From the NCBI GenBank assembly GCA_022449345.1, contig JAKURL010000008.1, forward strand, positions 17,937 through 81,936: DNA of 64,000 nucleotides, read 5' to 3'. Of this stretch, positions 24,405-45,970 are shown one piece after another. The position numbers and the translations under genes were made by a program. A model generated the notes under the pieces. The model was not told where the DNA came from. It made no database searches and worked only from the letters and a program-made list of their open reading frames with translations. Positions within the stretch are counted from its first letter, which is position 1; every line of letters starts with the position of its first letter. Origin of the DNA: Candidatus Thalassarchaeum sp. (GTDB taxonomy: Archaea > Thermoplasmatota > Poseidoniia > Poseidoniales > Thalassarchaeaceae).

Positions 24405-25862
24405 TCAGTAAACGTCACGCAGATATCTCTTGTCAGTCTTCATCATTCTAACTTCGACGAATTCCTTGGCCTCATCGGCTGACATACCGCCGAAATCTGC
24501 ACAAATCTGAATCAATGTTGAGTGTACGTCCTTGGCCATGTAATTCTTGTCACCGCAGACGTAGAAGTGAGCTCCACCGTCAATCCAATTCCAAATTTCT
24601 TGGCCGTGTTTAATCATCAGGTGTTGAACGTAGACCTTCTCATCTCCAGCCCGACTCCATGCTAGGTCGTGCCGATCTAGTACACCTCTCTCCTTCCAGT
24701 CCTCCATTTCATCTCGGTAGTAGTATTCTCCTTCCTCGGTCCAGTCTCCAAAGAATAGCCAATTGCGACCTTTGTCTCCGTTGATATCGCGCTGTTGAAG
24801 ATATGCTCTGAACGGTGCTATCCCAGTTCCTGGACCGACCATTATGCAGTCGGTATTGCCATCCTCTGGTAAGATGAACGAACGGGTTGGTGACATGAAT
24901 ACGCCGATTTCGGTATCATCGACCTGACAACGATCGGCGAGGAATCCAGTACACAAGCCGGTTCGGTCACGCTCGTGGTGAGAATATCGAACAATTGCCA
25001 CGGTCAAATGAACGGTTCCGGGTTCGTGTTCAGGACTGCTAGCGATTGAGTATAGGCGCGGTTTCAGTCGGTCCATACCATCGACGAGTTGTTGTGCGGT
25101 AAATCCGATGTGTCCGAAATCCCCCATCGCATCGATGTAATCGCGAGACCAAATGTAGTCCTCCATAGTATCGGCATCTTCTGTCAAGTTCCTCCAAAGA
25201 ATTTCAGCAGGGTCACAAGCAGCGCCAATCTCTTCGTAGCCTTCTGGAACATCTTCACCTTCACCGGAGCCCGACCAATCAACCAGTAGCACTCCATCCT
25301 CGGTTGATACTCGATGTCTACGGGCTATTCGAATCTCAACCGGTCCATCATCACCCATGCGGTTGCCTAGATTTTGAATCCACTTCTTCGATACTCGATG
25401 AATCTCTAGATGGTCGGTAAGGGCTTCACTTAGTGTAGTATGACCGAAGTGTGTTTCAACCATTTCATCTCCACTGAAGTTAGCGGTTGACAGCAAATCC
25501 TCGACCAATTCTGGTGGACAACAAGGAATTACTCCAAGAGCATCTCCGGCCTTGTATTCTAGACCGGAATCTCCCAAATTGAATACAATGTGGCGAGTTT
25601 CCTTGCGAGAACCTTCACTATTGAGGACGTAATTCTCCGTTAACTTCGAGATGAACGGATTCTTTGCACTCCAATCGGACACAGCACTCACCAGTGTCTC
25701 GCCGAGCCGAAGTCCGTTTATCAAAGAAGGGGGAGAAGGTTCGCCCGCGTAGCGGGCGTTGATACCCGAATGGCTCAAGTCATGAACGCCACATGGAGGG
25801 TCATGCCGCGCGTGCAGTTCCTCGGGACGGGGAATGCTTTCTCGCCTCATGGAAGGATGCAC
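24405..25862 (-). CDS. CysJ/CPR-type NADPH:flavin reductase (FAD/NADPH domains, no flavodoxin domain)
   Basis: RLYSIASSPEHEPGTVHLTV, TGLCTGFLAD, GTGIAPFRAYLQQR, FYVCGDKNYMAKDV; true start probably downstream of 25862, perhaps TTG near 25724 (LINGLRLGETLV). Confidence 0.85.
   Translation of the reverse strand: MHPSMRRESIPRPEELHARHDPPCGVHDLSHSGINARYAGEPSPPSLINGLRLGETLVSAVSDWSAKNPFISKLTENYVLNSEGSRKETRHIVFNLGDSGLEYKAGDALGVIPCCPPELVEDLLSTANFSGDEMVETHFGHTTLSEALTDHLEIHRVSKKWIQNLGNRMGDDGPVEIRIARRHRVSTEDGVLLVDWSGSGEGEDVPEGYEEIGAACDPAEILWRNLTEDADTMEDYIWSRDYIDAMGDFGHIGFTAQQLVDGMDRLKPRLYSIASSPEHEPGTVHLTVAIVRYSHHERDRTGLCTGFLADRCQVDDTEIGVFMSPTRSFILPEDGNTDCIMVGPGTGIAPFRAYLQQRDINGDKGRNWLFFGDWTEEGEYYYRDEMEDWKERGVLDRHDLAWSRAGDEKVYVQHLMIKHGQEIWNWIDGGAHFYVCGDKNYMAKDVHSTLIQICADFGGMSADEAKEFVEVRMMKTDKRYLRDVY
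25742..25758. repeat. Perfect 7-bp stem, GTA loop, in divergent intergenic region
   Basis: CGCCCGC-GTA-GCGGGCG. Confidence 0.85.
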
Positions 25863-38540: not shown

Positions 38541-39764
38541 GTGTCTCGGCGCATCGACATCCTCGGAGCGGGTCTTTCCGGACTTTCCGCTGCTACTTTG
38601 CTCGCCAGTGAAGGATACGATGTACATGTACATGAAATTCGCAAGGATTCCGGCGCACGATTTGATGGAGATTTCCAAGGTATTGAGAATTGGACGAGTA
38701 ATGTCGATTTCTTTGTTGAGATGCGCGAATGGGGGCTCGACCCAGATGAATTCAAATCCGATCCATTCAGCATTATTGATCTAATTCACCCCGACGACGA
38801 AATCACCAATCCGGTAACCGATGGGATTGCTTTTCGCGTTGTCGAGAGAGGAACCGATGAGCATTGTATAGATCAAGGATTCAAGAGAATGGCTTTAGCA
38901 GCCGGCGCGCAAATCCATTACGAGACTCGCAAAGACCCGAGCGAGTGCGATATCATCGCTGCCGGACCTAAGGATTCTAGCGCTGTGGCTTTCGGAGAAA
39001 TTTTCCACACTGACCATCCGAATATCGTCGCATTCCAACTCAATGACAAGTTGGCTCCGGGTGCCTATTCATATCTCATTATCATCGATGGAGTTGGGTT
39101 GATTTGCACCTGTCTTTGGAGACAGCAAAAGAAGTCCAGTCGATACCTAAACGAAACCATCGCTTGGTACGAGCAAAACTACGAACTCAATCGAAGGCCG
39201 ATTAAGCGAGTAGGAGGTAAAGGGGACTTCTCCATACCAGATCGCTACATTCACGAAGGACGTTATTACGTTGGTGAAGCGGGAGGATTACAGGACTTCA
39301 TGTGGGGCTTCGGAATGCGCTATGCCATCACCAGTGGAGTATACGCTGCTAATTCGATAATGGGTGCAAATGATTACGAGAAACAGATTCGCAGTCGCTT
39401 GCTTCCATTGATTAGGGCCAGCGCCATAAATCGATTCCTGATGAATCGAATCGGCGACCGTGGATTCAAGATGGTGGCGAATTATTGGATGCGACACCAA
39501 GCTCGCAAAGGAGACGGTCTAGAATTCATGAAATGGGTCTATCAACCGGGGATTTTCCGAAGAGCCATCTGGCCGATTGTTAGATTTGGAATGCTTCGAA
39601 GAAAGAAGATTGCAGATGGCAGAACCGTATCGAGAATGCCGTTCAGAAAGGCACTCTCTCGAGACGTTTGGGAACCAACTTCTCAGGCGGAAGAAATCGG
39701 CAAACAATGGAAGGAAATTCAGCGAGGTGGTGGAGGTATATCCTTCACTGAAACCGATACCTGA
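38541..39764 (+). CDS. Geranylgeranyl reductase-family FAD oxidoreductase
   Basis: RIDILGAGLSGLSAATLLASEGYDVHVHE; YYVGEAGGLQDFMWGFGMRYAITSGVYAA. Confidence 0.83.
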   Translation: MSRRIDILGAGLSGLSAATLLASEGYDVHVHEIRKDSGARFDGDFQGIENWTSNVDFFVEMREWGLDPDEFKSDPFSIIDLIHPDDEITNPVTDGIAFRVVERGTDEHCIDQGFKRMALAAGAQIHYETRKDPSECDIIAAGPKDSSAVAFGEIFHTDHPNIVAFQLNDKLAPGAYSYLIIIDGVGLICTCLWRQQKKSSRYLNETIAWYEQNYELNRRPIKRVGGKGDFSIPDRYIHEGRYYVGEAGGLQDFMWGFGMRYAITSGVYAANSIMGANDYEKQIRSRLLPLIRASAINRFLMNRIGDRGFKMVANYWMRHQARKGDGLEFMKWVYQPGIFRRAIWPIVRFGMLRRKKIADGRTVSRMPFRKALSRDVWEPTSQAEEIGKQWKEIQRGGGGISFTETDT

Positions 39765-39828: not shown

Positions 39829-40686
39829 ATGACATCATGGCCTGACATGCAGTCAATGGCGCACAACCTTGTGAACTATGGAACGACGGATAACGGTATA
39901 GCCATCATCGAACTGTGCTCTGATTCTGCTGGAGAACCCCTAACTGAAGGTAAGACGCCGGTCAACACATACACTCACTCGATGATGAGAGACATAGACC
40001 AGGCAGTACTCAAGGCTCGGTTCGACGATGACGTGACTGTGATTCTACTCACTGGTTTTGGAGAGAAGTTCTTCTCAGCAGGAGCCAGTATCAGCATGCT
40101 CGATTCGGTCAGTCCCGGATTCAAGTACTTCTTCTGCCTACACGCCAACGAGACCCTGAGCAGACTGGAACAGACTCCCAAGCTCGTAATTGCCGCCCTG
40201 AACGGACATGCCGTTGGTGGTGGACTGGAGATTGCTATGTCGGCAGACATCCGCATCGGCCGCAAGGATTCTGGCCAGGTAGGCCTCCCAGAAGTCTCAC
40301 TGGGAGTCCTCGCAGGGACTGGTGGGACTGCTAGGCTGTCCCGTCTAGTCGGTAAGGCGAGGGCGATGGAAATCATGGTAACGGGACGAAAGTTCTCGTA
40401 CGAGGAGGCCAAGGAGATGGACCTAGTACATGACGTCTGGGCTGGCAGCCTTGAGGAGTTTCGCCAAGATATCCTCGACTACGCTGGCCAGTTCACTCTG
40501 CCTTATGCGGCAAGCAAGGCGATCGGAAACATCAAGCGAAGTGTCCAGAGTGGTATGGAGATCCCTCTCGAGTACCACCTAGCACTCGAGAGAGAGTTGC
40601 AATCTGACTTGTTCCAGAGCGATGATGCGAAGAAAGGTATTGCCGCATATGTGAACAGGGAAGTTCCAGAATTTGATGGAAATTGA
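39829..40686 (+). CDS. Enoyl-CoA hydratase/crotonase family
   Basis: ALNGHAVGGGLEIAMSADI and LPEVSLGVLAGTGGTARLSRLVG; both catalytic-position Glu present; start ATG 39829 (ORF from 39577 overlaps upstream gene). Confidence 0.9.
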   Translation: MTSWPDMQSMAHNLVNYGTTDNGIAIIELCSDSAGEPLTEGKTPVNTYTHSMMRDIDQAVLKARFDDDVTVILLTGFGEKFFSAGASISMLDSVSPGFKYFFCLHANETLSRLEQTPKLVIAALNGHAVGGGLEIAMSADIRIGRKDSGQVGLPEVSLGVLAGTGGTARLSRLVGKARAMEIMVTGRKFSYEEAKEMDLVHDVWAGSLEEFRQDILDYAGQFTLPYAASKAIGNIKRSVQSGMEIPLEYHLALERELQSDLFQSDDAKKGIAAYVNREVPEFDGN

Positions 40687-40752: not shown

Positions 40753-41898
40753 ATGATGGCAGACGCAGAGATAGTGGGAGACTACACACAGAACTTTGAG
40801 GCGTGGATTGACGAGTTCAACGACTGGCAGACGAGAATCGGTTTCGACCCCTCTTGGTTAGGTGACTACCGCTTCGACATCAAGTTCGACTGGGACACCG
40901 CTGGAGACAGCATTGAGTTCGGTGATTTCGAAGGCAGACCAAAGTGGGAACGGAGGATGCAAATCCCACAGCAAACCATCAGGGATGCTATCATCAGTAT
41001 GATTAGCGTTCAGGGCGATACCGAGTTCGCTTCGGTTGAGCAGCAGAATCACCTTCTGGCATCTGCTCCAACAGAATACGACAAGAAATCGGCTCTTAGG
41101 ATAATGTGTGAGGAGCAGCGGCACGGCTGGCAGATGGCTTACCTCCTATGCACTTTCTTTGGTGAGCAAGGAGTTCGTGAAGCTGCTAAACTACTCGAGA
41201 GGAATGCTCAGGATGGAACTCGTATCCTAGGCTCATTCAACGAACCGATAGACCATTGGTTAGACTTCTTCATGTTTACTCACTTCATCGATCGTGATGG
41301 CAAGTACCAGTTGAAGATGCTGAGCACATCTTCGTTCAAACCTCTGGCGGCTTCGATGGGTCCAATGCTCAAGGAGGAGTCTTTTCATCTCGGTACAGGT
41401 GCCAACGGGCTACGCAGGATTGTCAAGCAGGGAGTCATTCCCTGCGCTTTGATTCAGAAGTACGTCAACAAGTGGGTGAGTACAGGACTCGATTTATTCG
41501 GAACTGATGATTCGTCCAGTGCTCAGTGGGCATATGTTTACGGCGTCAAGGGTAGATACGATGAGAGAGAAGCTGCTGAAGCAGCCGATAGAGAGCATCT
41601 AAACGAAGCCAGCAGGGAATTGTACTTCCAAGAACTCAGAGATGAGATGATTAGGATCAGCAAGGCCCGAAAGGAGGGTGAACCTGAGCTCTACATCCCG
41701 TCAGACAAGTTCAAGCGCGAAATTGGTAGGTACGCCGGTAAGCGTTATACTGTCCACGGAGAGGTGTTTGAGGGCGATGATAACGCTTGGGATGAGTACC
41801 TCTCAACGGTTCTGCCAACTGACGAGGACGAGGATAAACTAGTCAACGAGTACTTGAAGGGAGAATGGATTCAGTACCGAGAGTGGAAGGGCGACTGA
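40753..41898 (+). CDS. BoxB/PaaA-like diiron ferritin-like protein (candidate acyl/aryl-CoA epoxidase)
   Basis: E91, E121xxH124 (EEQRHGWQMAYLL), D180, E209xxH212 (LKEESFHLGTG) four-helix diiron ligand pattern. Confidence 0.75.
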   Translation: MMADAEIVGDYTQNFEAWIDEFNDWQTRIGFDPSWLGDYRFDIKFDWDTAGDSIEFGDFEGRPKWERRMQIPQQTIRDAIISMISVQGDTEFASVEQQNHLLASAPTEYDKKSALRIMCEEQRHGWQMAYLLCTFFGEQGVREAAKLLERNAQDGTRILGSFNEPIDHWLDFFMFTHFIDRDGKYQLKMLSTSSFKPLAASMGPMLKEESFHLGTGANGLRRIVKQGVIPCALIQKYVNKWVSTGLDLFGTDDSSSAQWAYVYGVKGRYDEREAAEAADREHLNEASRELYFQELRDEMIRISKARKEGEPELYIPSDKFKREIGRYAGKRYTVHGEVFEGDDNAWDEYLSTVLPTDEDEDKLVNEYLKGEWIQYREWKGD

Positions 41899-41915: not shown

Positions 41916-42476
41916 ATGCAGCATGTTGCTTTGACCTCATTCGACAAGGAGCGTTGCGCTCCGTTTTTTGAGAAGCTAACTGAATACTTCCATGAGCATC
42001 ATCACTCCGCTGAGCAAGATGCAGCGGGGTACGAGGAACTGCTATACCTCATCCGCCGACCATATACTCCTGAGATGCTGGATATGATTGACCTTTGGAT
42101 GGGTCTGCCCGAGCGCGATTGGCGCGACGAGACCCAAAGAGAAGTAATGCTGGCGCTATATGCCATCAGGTACCCAGACACATTGCTCATAGAGAGTTTT
42201 ACTGAGAAAGCCAAATCGGACATGCGACGACTTTCCGCCTACCTCCACTTCACCGGCCACACCTACGCCATCTGGGACGAGGACTCTCGCAGAGGATTGA
42301 GCAAGTTGGGAATCGAGATTCCCAGCACTGAATCTGCTGACCCATTCATTTACGGCGCCTATGTCTCAGCCATTGAGTTGCTAAAAGACGTGGCACCATT
42401 CACATGCTTCCTCGAGCATGATGTGCCGCGACAGCGACTTTTCCAAGCAGCCCTTGCTGCTTTTGGTAGGGAGTGA
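41916..42476 (+). CDS. Hypothetical protein in epoxidase cluster
   Basis: Between the diiron gene and HAD on the same strand; likely start ATG 41916 (MQHVALTSFDKERC). Confidence 0.65.
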   Translation: MQHVALTSFDKERCAPFFEKLTEYFHEHHHSAEQDAAGYEELLYLIRRPYTPEMLDMIDLWMGLPERDWRDETQREVMLALYAIRYPDTLLIESFTEKAKSDMRRLSAYLHFTGHTYAIWDEDSRRGLSKLGIEIPSTESADPFIYGAYVSAIELLKDVAPFTCFLEHDVPRQRLFQAALAAFGRE

Positions 42477-42480
42477 TTCG

Positions 42481-43371
42481 ATGGATGTTCGGACCGTCGC
42501 CGTAATCGGCGCCGGGACGATGGGCGCAGGAATTGCACAGGTTTGCGCTCAAACAGGTTGGCAAACCAACCTATTCGACGCTTATCCTGAAGGATTGGAA
42601 CGTGGCATGAATACCATTAACGAATTCTGGGACAATGGAATCGCTCGAGGAAAAACAACTCCTGAACAGAAAGAAGAGTGGTCAGCAAATATTCACACAT
42701 TCTCTGACATGAGAAATGCAGTCAAAGATGTAGATTTGGTTATTGAAGCAGTTCCTGAAATTATGGAAATAAAAGCAAGAATATTCCATGTTCTTTCCAT
42801 AGAAACGAAAGAGGATTGTATCTTAGCAACAAACACATCCTCACTTTCAATCTCTAATATCGCACAGGCCTCAGACCGTCCAGACAAAGTAATTGGAATG
42901 CACTTTTTCAATCCAGTTCCAATCATGAAATTGCTTGAGATTGTCCGACACGATTCGTGCTCGGAAGCCACCATCGCAGCGGCGCAATCAATCGGTTCTG
43001 CGATGGGTAAAGAGACCATATTAGTCAATGATGTACCAGGATTCGCAACCAGCAGACTTGGGGTAGTTCTCGGCAATGAAGCTATTCGAATGCTGGCCGA
43101 TGGGGTTGCCAGCGCTTCGGATATCGATACCGCGATGCGCCTTGGTTATCGACACCCAATGGGTCCACTGGAACTCTCAGACTTGGTCGGACTGGATGTG
43201 AGACGGGATATCCTCAACAGTTTGGCTGAGGCATTCGACGATGATTCATATCAACCTCATCAGCTGCTCAATTCACTGGTTGAGGAAGGCAGTCTCGGGA
43301 AGAAGAGCGGAAGAGGGATTTACGATTGGACCAATGGTAACAAGTCCGAACGTGAGGACCTCCCATTGTGA
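42481..43371 (+). CDS. 3-hydroxyacyl-CoA dehydrogenase
   Basis: VRTVAVIGAGTMGAGIAQVCAQTG, GMHFFNPVPIMKLLEIV, NDVPGFATSRLG, HPMGPLELSDLVGLD. Confidence 0.94.
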   Translation: MDVRTVAVIGAGTMGAGIAQVCAQTGWQTNLFDAYPEGLERGMNTINEFWDNGIARGKTTPEQKEEWSANIHTFSDMRNAVKDVDLVIEAVPEIMEIKARIFHVLSIETKEDCILATNTSSLSISNIAQASDRPDKVIGMHFFNPVPIMKLLEIVRHDSCSEATIAAAQSIGSAMGKETILVNDVPGFATSRLGVVLGNEAIRMLADGVASASDIDTAMRLGYRHPMGPLELSDLVGLDVRRDILNSLAEAFDDDSYQPHQLLNSLVEEGSLGKKSGRGIYDWTNGNKSEREDLPL

Positions 43372-43680: not shown

Positions 43681-44481
43681 TCATTCCTCTTCGGATAAAT
43701 AGCCAAAATTAGCCGGCCGCTTCTCTAGAAAAGCGGAAACACCTTCTGCGAAATCTGGGGTAAGTGAAGCGGCAGTAATTAGGGCCTTTTCGAACTCAAG
43801 TTGAGTTTCCATGAAGGTTGTAGATGATGCATCGAGTAATTGTTTGGTACCTTGTTTACTGGCTTGAGCCCATGAGCTCCAATTTCTTGCAACCTCGATC
43901 GCTCTGTCAATTAGTGATTCTGAACCTGTGAGTTCGTCTACTGCTCCAAATTCGAGGGCTTGATCGCCAGTCCAAACTTCGTTATCGAAGAAAAATCGGC
44001 GAGCACGTTGGTATCCTACCAATCGTGGAAGTAGCCAAGTTGAGCCTCCATCTGGCGATAACCCGAGTGAAAAAAAGGCGGCTGCAAGCCTAGCATCTGG
44101 AACACAGACACGATAGTCAGCGCATAGCGCGAGACCTAATCCACCACCGGCCGCAGATCCGTTGATTGCTGCGACGTATACAGTCGAACTGCGACGGAGT
44201 CGTAATTCAAGTGGGTGCAATACGCTGGTCAATTCGTCGACGAGATTTGCGATTGTGCCGTCATCAATCGAGTCTGCGAACTCATCAATGTCCGCTCCGG
44301 TACAGAAAAATCGGCCTGTTCCAGTGAGTACAATTGCCTTGCAAGAAGGGTCGTCTAACAAACCACCCATGACAGTAGAAATTTCGCGAATAGAAGTACG
44401 TGAGAAGGCATTTCTTGCCGCCTCTTCGGAGAGTGTGACAACGGCAACTCCGCCGTCATGGCGTTCGACCCCGATTCCCAT
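43681..44481 (-). CDS. PaaG-like enoyl-CoA isomerase/hydratase family
   Basis: GSAAGGGLGLALCADYRV..FFSLGLSPDGGSTWLLPRLVG; lacks both hydratase Glu, keeps PaaG-type PD. Confidence 0.88.
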   Translation of the reverse strand: MGIGVERHDGGVAVVTLSEEAARNAFSRTSIREISTVMGGLLDDPSCKAIVLTGTGRFFCTGADIDEFADSIDDGTIANLVDELTSVLHPLELRLRRSSTVYVAAINGSAAGGGLGLALCADYRVCVPDARLAAAFFSLGLSPDGGSTWLLPRLVGYQRARRFFFDNEVWTGDQALEFGAVDELTGSESLIDRAIEVARNWSSWAQASKQGTKQLLDASSTTFMETQLEFEKALITAASLTPDFAEGVSAFLEKRPANFGYLSEEE

Positions 44482-44551: not shown

Positions 44552-45970
44552 ATGCACGCGCGCGAGAACATCTACATCAACGGGAAGTGGATTCCTGCAA
44601 GTGGCGAAGGCAGCATCGAAGTGGTCAATCCAGCAACTGAGCAATGCATCGGTTCGGTGCCTGTTGGTAGTGCTACAGATGTAGAATCGGCGGTCTCAGC
44701 AGCTCGTGCAGCATTCCCCGCTTGGTCGCAATCGAGTATCGAAGAGCGTCAAGGCTACCTGAATGCGATTTCAGCGGCGATTGCAGAGCGTGGAGAAGAA
44801 ATCGCCGAATTAATCACTTCAGAAGTTGGAACTCCAATCAATTACAGCAGAATGGCGATGGTTGGAACTCCTAGGGTGGTTTCTAGATTATATGCAAAGA
44901 TGCTCGATTCCTTTGAGTGGGAGGAAGAAGTTCGGAACTCACTCATCGTCAAGGAATCAATTGGTGTAGTCGGTATGATTACTCCTTGGAATTTCCCACT
45001 TCACCAAATCATCGGCAAGGTCGCTCCTGCACTGGCTGCTGGCTGTACAATGGTCCTCAAACCATCGAAAGAAGCCCCGCTGAACGCATTCTTGCTAGCT
45101 GATATCATCGACAAGAGTGGTCTTCCTGCAGGGGTATTCAATCTAGTCTCAGGACATGGTCGCGAAATCGGTGAGACTCTTTCGGCTCACCCAGAAGTCG
45201 ACATGGTCAGTTTCACAGGGTCAACCGGCGCTGGAGTAAGTGTCTCACAAGCCGCAGCGCCGACAGTAAAGCGCGTCACTCTAGAATTGGGTGGAAAGAG
45301 TGCCAATGTAATCCTAGATGATGCCGACATTGAAAAGGCTGCTAAGATGGCGGTTTACGCTTGCTTCAACAATTCTGGACAAGAATGCTCGAGCCTAAGT
45401 CGACTAATCGTACCAGCAACAGTGCGTGATGAGGTAGTCGAGGTAATCTCTGCCACAATTGCGCGCTATACAGTAGGCGACCCGATGGATGAATCGATGC
45501 GCTGCGGACCGATGGTATCGGCGCGACAGCAAGAATCGGTCGCCGGCTACATAGCCTCAGGAATAGCCGAAGGAGCCACCCTTGTTGCGGGAGGCGAGGG
45601 TATGCCAGATGGCCTAGATTCAGGATTCTATGTCAAGCCGACCGTGTTCGCAGATGTATCTCCGGAGATGACAATTTTCCGCGAGGAAATCTTCGGACCT
45701 GTGCTATCAATCACCACTTACGAGACAGAGGATGAAGCGATTGCACTTGCCAACGATTCGGAATACGGACTGTCTGGCGGCGTCTGGTCAGGCGATGAAG
45801 ACAGAGCCTTGCGATTCGCCCGCCAAATGAGAACTGGACAAGTCAGTATCAATGGTGGCGCATTCAACATCAGCGCTCCATTTGGTGGATACAAGTTGTC
45901 AGGTAATGGTCGTGAACTTGGGGTTCATGGACTAGAGGAATTCCTTGAAGTGAAGGCCATCCAGCGTTAG
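44552..45970 (+). CDS. NAD(P)-dependent aldehyde dehydrogenase
   Basis: [69 protein letters not shown]. Confidence 0.95.

Follow-up and report, generated by a model that had tools for sequence, protein, structure and literature searches.

The gene at positions 40753–41898 (+) of the window, the 64,000-nucleotide stretch analysed here of DNA from Candidatus Thalassarchaeum, a Marine Group IIb (MGIIb) archaeon of the Poseidoniales, encodes a putative BoxB-like diiron oxygenase of 381 residues, and comparison of sequence, profiles, fold and phylogeny supports its placement in a separate subfamily, sister of bacterial BoxB. What is new is that a subfamily standing beside BoxB comes with a BoxC-like partner of minimal size and with an accessory protein of a new kind. 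In a phmmer search against the Protein Data Bank (PDB), the oxygenase matched BoxB with 167 bits (E = 7.8e-48), a resemblance in sequence far beyond chance, and PaaA with 30 bits (E = 2e-6). NCBIfam profile searches gave 219.5 bits for the BoxB equivalog TIGR03225, below its cut-off of 499.1, and 44.4 bits for the PaaA equivalog TIGR02156, below its cut-off of 280, and Pfam PF05138 (PaaA_PaaC) matched with 52.8 bits, above its gathering cut-off of 28.5. The second codon of the reading frame is also ATG, and because most relatives begin there the true start may be M2.

The records nearest to the query come from Marine Group II/Thalassarchaeaceae genomes. The oxygenase gene is present in 87 of 97 relatives and in all 29 high-quality Poseidoniales genomes. 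A long form (50–60% identity) occurs in families f4, f15, f21, f31, f32 and f39 and a short form (~255–290 residues) in families f6 and f22, the BoxB-like gene being spread over at least eight Thermoplasmatota families. None of six genomes of family f3, a family of the same class that we infer to be Marine Group III, carries the gene. Every member of Marine Group II, the most abundant archaea of the ocean surface, probably has the oxygenase, and, as an oxygen-dependent enzyme present in all good genomes of this group, it offers a tangible target for expression from which to learn what fuels these organisms. Each Poseidoniales genome encodes a single PF05138 protein, which argues that the oxygenase has no PaaC-type partner; BoxB likewise needs no PaaC-type subunit (PMC4498308). 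Scans of viral contigs with two archaeal oxygenase queries returned no matches. Typical bacterial boxB genes occur on contigs of the IMG/VR viral collection (L165–L171), which are probably either of host origin or carriers of genes taken from a host.

In a maximum-likelihood tree, BoxB and the long archaeal forms grouped together with full support (100/100). A long branch, also fully supported, set BoxB apart from the archaeal forms, and a clade uniting the archaeal forms with PaaA was rejected (p-AU 6e-5). A test of whether the long archaeal forms are monophyletic to the exclusion of BoxB gave p = 0.40, and sampling was thin for Sulfolobales, Halobacteria and bacteria. An earlier note on this DNA had placed the protein nearer to BoxB than to PaaA and suggested that it might form a separate subfamily, with phylogeny and structure prediction as checks. 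The phmmer and NCBIfam searches, the tree, the Foldseek search and the pocket residues described below all agree on the first point, and the score below the BoxB equivalog cut-off together with the long, fully supported branch from all sampled BoxB bears out the second.

Translation places E, E, H, D, E and H at residues 91, 121, 124, 180, 209 and 212, exactly as the note had counted them, and the protein has two ExxH motifs only, at 121 and 209. All six residues share columns with the crystallographic BoxB ligands in an alignment of 44 proteins, and the BoxB numbers given in the note (E120, E150, H153, D211, E240 and H243) agree with the published ones (PMC5489048). Glu91 (41023–41025, +) aligns with the Fe1 ligand Glu120, Glu121-x-x-His124 (41113–41124, +) with bridging Glu150 and the Fe1 ligand His153, Asp180 (41290–41292, +) with the Fe2 ligand Asp211, and Glu209-x-x-His212 (41377–41388, +) with the Fe2 ligands Glu240 and His243. 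The six ligands are kept in the sampled long archaeal forms, with the exception of one f39 sequence in which the first Glu is replaced by Gly. This f39 gene (L143:7998–9122, −) reads QGDTGFASVEQ at the site and comes from a genome that is 74% complete; inactivation or a sequence error is a possible cause.

The preference for BoxB over PaaA had originally been argued from ligand spacing, and here the inference stands while the spacing itself turns out to be the weakest of the available evidence. The first interval is 30 in all 44 aligned proteins and the last is 29 in nearly all of them, PaaA included, with complete patterns of 30/61/29 in BoxB (8 of 8), 30/59/29 in the query and 30/54/29 in PaaA (5 of 5). 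The middle interval is 54 in PaaA and SSO1313, 56 in the short archaeal forms, mostly 59 in the oxygenase's own family and 61 in BoxB, and it reaches 67 in three MGIIb sequences owing to an 8-residue loop insert. Because this interval is a loop length that varies within the family, spacing alone is insufficient to show kinship with BoxB. The 8-residue insert, seen in L102, L122 and L126 from some MGIIb genera, falls in the stretch that links the second ligand helix to the third. The intermediate length of the protein was also described correctly, at 381 residues versus 475 for one BoxB and 313 for one PaaA.

An earlier AlphaFold model of the oxygenase, built from 19 near-identical MGIIb sequences, reached a pLDDT of 38. 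A second model, whose alignment included BoxB and PaaA sequences taken from viral-collection contigs, reached a pLDDT of 71 and bears the ligands on helices 73–99, 108–135, 169–190 and 196–226. Foldseek with this model ranked BoxB first (E = 2.7e-16, query TM 0.75), ahead of SSO1313 (5.7e-8) and PaaA/PaaC chains (~1e-5 and weaker), a fold match that is supportive and non-independent because the BoxB sequences in the alignment lean the model toward BoxB.

Five of six published second-shell pocket residues of BoxB are present in the query: Gln116, Thr119, Ser123, Phe193 and Phe203 correspond to Q87, T90, S94, F162 and F172, and their equivalents are kept in the sampled long archaeal forms. PaaA carries His, Ser and Gly where BoxB has Gln116, Thr119 and Ser123. 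The position of BoxB Thr210 is occupied by Ile179 in the query and by Ile or Val in the long archaeal forms, with one Met, and BoxB position 206 is Phe or Tyr across these forms, the query keeping Phe. Retention of nearly all the side chains with which BoxB grips the benzoyl group argues for a benzoyl-type aryl-CoA as substrate, and the differences in the predicted pocket for a somewhat altered placement of the ring relative to BoxB.

Just upstream of the oxygenase, the gene at 39829–40686 (+) encodes a single-domain crotonase (ECHup) that appears to be related to the N-terminal, active domain of BoxC and in alignment has equivalents of both crotonase glutamates, BoxC Glu146 and Glu168, and of BoxC Cys111, which we take to be catalytic. 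The motif FC-x3/4-[NQ]E occurs in 105 of 107 BoxC-like crotonases, 3 of 3 BoxC proteins and 0 of 73 other crotonases. Of the 20 Poseidoniales genomes in which the BoxC profile matches any protein, at least 19 have the upstream crotonase, as judged by position, as the top scorer. A branch with 100/99 support in the crotonase tree splits the upstream crotonase and the BoxC N-terminal domain from PaaF, PaaG and other local crotonases; a test of the upstream crotonase and BoxC as one clade, on few sequences with long branches, gave p = 0.37, by which kinship with BoxC is neither rejected nor proven. The BoxC-like crotonase co-occurs almost perfectly with the oxygenase across the phylum. Outside Poseidoniales, 22 of 211 sampled genomes, which are related to one another, carry it, namely every one of the 19 in which a BoxB-like gene is clear and three with weaker PaaA/BoxB-type matches, and it occurs in none of the 186 genomes without any PaaA/BoxB-type match. 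Across 29 genomes, no two-domain BoxC scored above the cut-off of 712, the one-domain relative alone being found. The active centre of BoxC lies in its N-terminal domain only, with two Glu placed as in PaaF (PMC4498308), and a one-domain equivalent is therefore plausible; BoxC is also recovered together with BoxB on purification and lifts the inhibition of that enzyme by its product (PMC4498308).

The MGIIb gene order runs from the crotonase through the oxygenase to a conserved ~186-residue protein of unknown family (41916–42476, +; 'DUF187' in this analysis) and a 3-hydroxyacyl-CoA dehydrogenase of PaaH/HBD type that is conserved in the cluster (42481–43371, +). Further on lie a PaaG-type crotonase (43681–44481, −), which has the catalytic Asp in SPDGG and no hydratase Glu and is syntenic in both Poseidoniales families, and an aldehyde dehydrogenase (44552–45970, +) that could provide a semialdehyde step and is weakly linked to the cluster, its MGIIa neighbour being only ~35% identical. 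In MGIIa the crotonase has moved by a few kilobases and the remaining order is kept, and in family f6 the crotonase lies immediately upstream of the short-form gene. The ~186-residue protein is encoded downstream of the long-form gene, no more than 64 bases after it or overlapping its reading frame, at 29 of 31 long-form loci; in one of the two exceptions a weak match lies on another contig, and in the other the contig breaks off within the oxygenase gene. Short-form genomes do not encode the protein, and profile searches revealed no convincing relative in Pfam or the PDB and none in NCBIfam. This strict co-occurrence suggests that the protein probably works with the long-form oxygenase. Two further genes recur nearby: a geranylgeranyl-reductase-like flavoprotein (window 38541–39764, +) stands beside the BoxC-like crotonase in both Poseidoniales families and stays with it even where the crotonase has left the oxygenase, and in MGIIa, as in some genera of MGIIb (L111, L112, L114, L122 and L126), the oxygenase gene directly follows a gene for a ~207-residue protein, by eye only an apparent helix-turn-helix regulator.

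Searches for the remaining Box and Paa components gave no BoxA reductase above cut-off in 39 relatives, no benzoate-CoA ligase or indolepyruvate oxidoreductase alpha above cut-off in 29–39 relatives, and no phenylacetate-CoA ligase PaaK above cut-off in 29. The best BoxA match in each genome was a CysJ-like flavoprotein (window 24405–25862, −) without a flavodoxin domain, found in nearly all Poseidoniales and most sampled f3 genomes and located ~15 kb from the oxygenase in many genomes. It was considered as a substitute for BoxA and dropped as the dedicated reductase, being of sulfite-reductase type, present in the sister family f3 where the oxygenase is absent, and lacking in genomes outside the order that do carry the oxygenase. 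In family f31, a Rieske-type ferredoxin gene (L137:4162–4680, −) lies near the oxygenase and crotonase genes, and its product is a possible electron donor there.

The best explanation of these data, which we consider somewhat better than an even bet, is that the protein serves as oxygenase in a Box-like epoxidase/hydrolase module of archaea whose substrate is an aryl-CoA. That it is a diiron oxygenase acting on a CoA thioester is highly probable and that it works with the BoxC-like crotonase is likely; benzoyl-CoA itself as the substrate is a tentative assignment. By homology only, a ferritin-like four-helix bundle would hold two irons through E91, E121, H124, D180, E209 and H212. Reduced by some electron donor, the oxygenase would activate O2 and epoxidise an acyl group bound as a CoA thioester, most likely benzoyl-CoA or a close aryl-CoA, and the upstream crotonase, a one-domain counterpart of BoxC's active half, would open the unstable epoxide so formed by hydrolysis. 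The PaaG-type isomerase, aldehyde dehydrogenase and 3-hydroxyacyl-CoA dehydrogenase might, more tentatively, pass the opened chain to beta-oxidation, and the ~186-residue protein would probably partner the long-form enzyme. Several points count against this aryl-CoA module: no aromatic CoA ligase, indolepyruvate oxidoreductase alpha or BoxA scored above cut-off in 29–39 relatives, BoxB Thr210 is Ile or Val in the archaeal forms, a gene carried by all Poseidoniales fits a central role better than facultative use of aromatics, the BoxC kinship of the crotonase comes from few, long-branched sequences, and the better structure model leans toward BoxB. Marine Group II is described as proteolytic (PMC6461757), and we speculate that aromatic amino-acid breakdown products could be a source of the CoA substrate. 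A broader proposal, to which we give slightly less than an even chance, is a third CoA-thioester epoxygenase system beside Box and Paa: an archaeal system in which a BoxB-sister enzyme without a PaaC-type subunit, a one-domain BoxC-like hydrolase and the new ~186-residue partner would draw on their own reductase and act, within Marine Group II core metabolism, on a substrate other than free benzoate or phenylacetate.

The same features bear on several alternatives. A diiron monooxygenase of the same fold could act in core metabolism on a non-aromatic CoA thioester, whether branched, unsaturated or amino-acid derived, with the crotonase hydrating its product. Occurrence in 29 of 29 high-quality Poseidoniales genomes, the lack of an aromatic acid ligase among the relatives examined, the beta-oxidation type of the neighbouring genes and the exchange of Thr210 for Ile or Val all fit this idea, but the long forms preserve the benzoyl-contacting Gln116, Thr119, Ser123, Phe193 and Phe203, and the crotonase retains a BoxC-type Cys motif absent from other sampled crotonases, and we regard it as rather unlikely. 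It is improbable that the gene encodes a true benzoyl-CoA epoxidase (BoxB) that was acquired from bacteria, has diverged in sequence only and serves the classic box pathway: its best matches are BoxB throughout, yet the profile score of 219.5 bits falls far from the cut-off of 499.1, a long, fully supported branch separates BoxB from the archaeal forms, relatives have no BoxA or two-domain BoxC above cut-off, and the gene has spread across at least eight Thermoplasmatota families. The Pfam name PaaA_PaaC of PF05138 and the nearby PaaG-type crotonase would suit a PaaA-type phenylacetyl-CoA epoxidase subunit, a very improbable identity given a score of 44 bits against a cut-off of 280, rejection of the tree with PaaA (p-AU 6e-5), no PaaC partner, no PaaK above cut-off and pocket residues that PaaA does not share. 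We give scarcely any credence to a non-catalytic or differently acting ferritin-like relative, such as an iron-storage or structural subunit; the PaaC rows of the alignment illustrate that this fold can lose its metal site, but here families with 50–60% identity still share all six ligands and almost the entire second shell.

Together, the oxygenase, the one-domain BoxC relative and the small protein of unknown family point to an unrecognised oxygen-dependent breakdown of a ring-type or similar CoA compound. An archaeal BoxB-like module was not reported in the open-access papers searched, subscription papers lying outside that search. If correct, the aryl-CoA assignment would reveal that Archaea have a Box-like route of their own, served by a minimal BoxC of one domain, and would bear on the origin of the two-domain bacterial enzyme. 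Among known systems, PaaA, the catalytic subunit of phenylacetyl-CoA epoxidase (TIGR02156, PDB 3PVR), shares the fold, the six ligand positions and the 30 and 29 intervals, and differs in its middle interval of 54, its His/Ser/Gly pocket, its work with PaaC and PaaB and an identity of 22–24%. SSO1313, a protein of unknown function from Sulfolobus solfataricus (PDB 4MUD), is likewise archaeal, is the second-best PDB relative (5.5e-20) and agrees at all six ligand positions within the aligned region, but it is 235 residues long, lacks the Gln116, Thr119 and Ser123 pocket residues and falls outside the clade of BoxB and Thermoplasmatota proteins. Short-form Thermoplasmatota proteins (f6, f22) share the pocket Gln/Thr/Ser and, in f6, a BoxC-like crotonase gene directly upstream; their identity is 34–39%, they have Val at position 203, and they lack both the C-terminal extension and a DUF187 gene. 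In contrast to BoxC, the upstream crotonase has one domain instead of two, ~31% identity to the N-terminal domain and a score far below the BoxC cut-off; it resembles BoxC in the two catalytic Glu, the Cys111 equivalent, the FC....NE motif and a gene adjoining that of a BoxB-type enzyme. Compared with BoxB, the benzoyl-CoA 2,3-epoxidase of Azoarcus evansii (PDB 3PER/3PM5/3Q1G; TIGR03225), the oxygenase has about 38–39% identity, is ~95 residues shorter and carries Ile or Val for Thr210, and the archaeal system has an extra small partner gene and no recognisable BoxA or benzoate-CoA ligase. The two enzymes share the fold, six ligands, five of six pocket residues, a C-terminal extension, independence of a PaaC-type subunit and a gene adjoining that of a BoxC-type crotonase.
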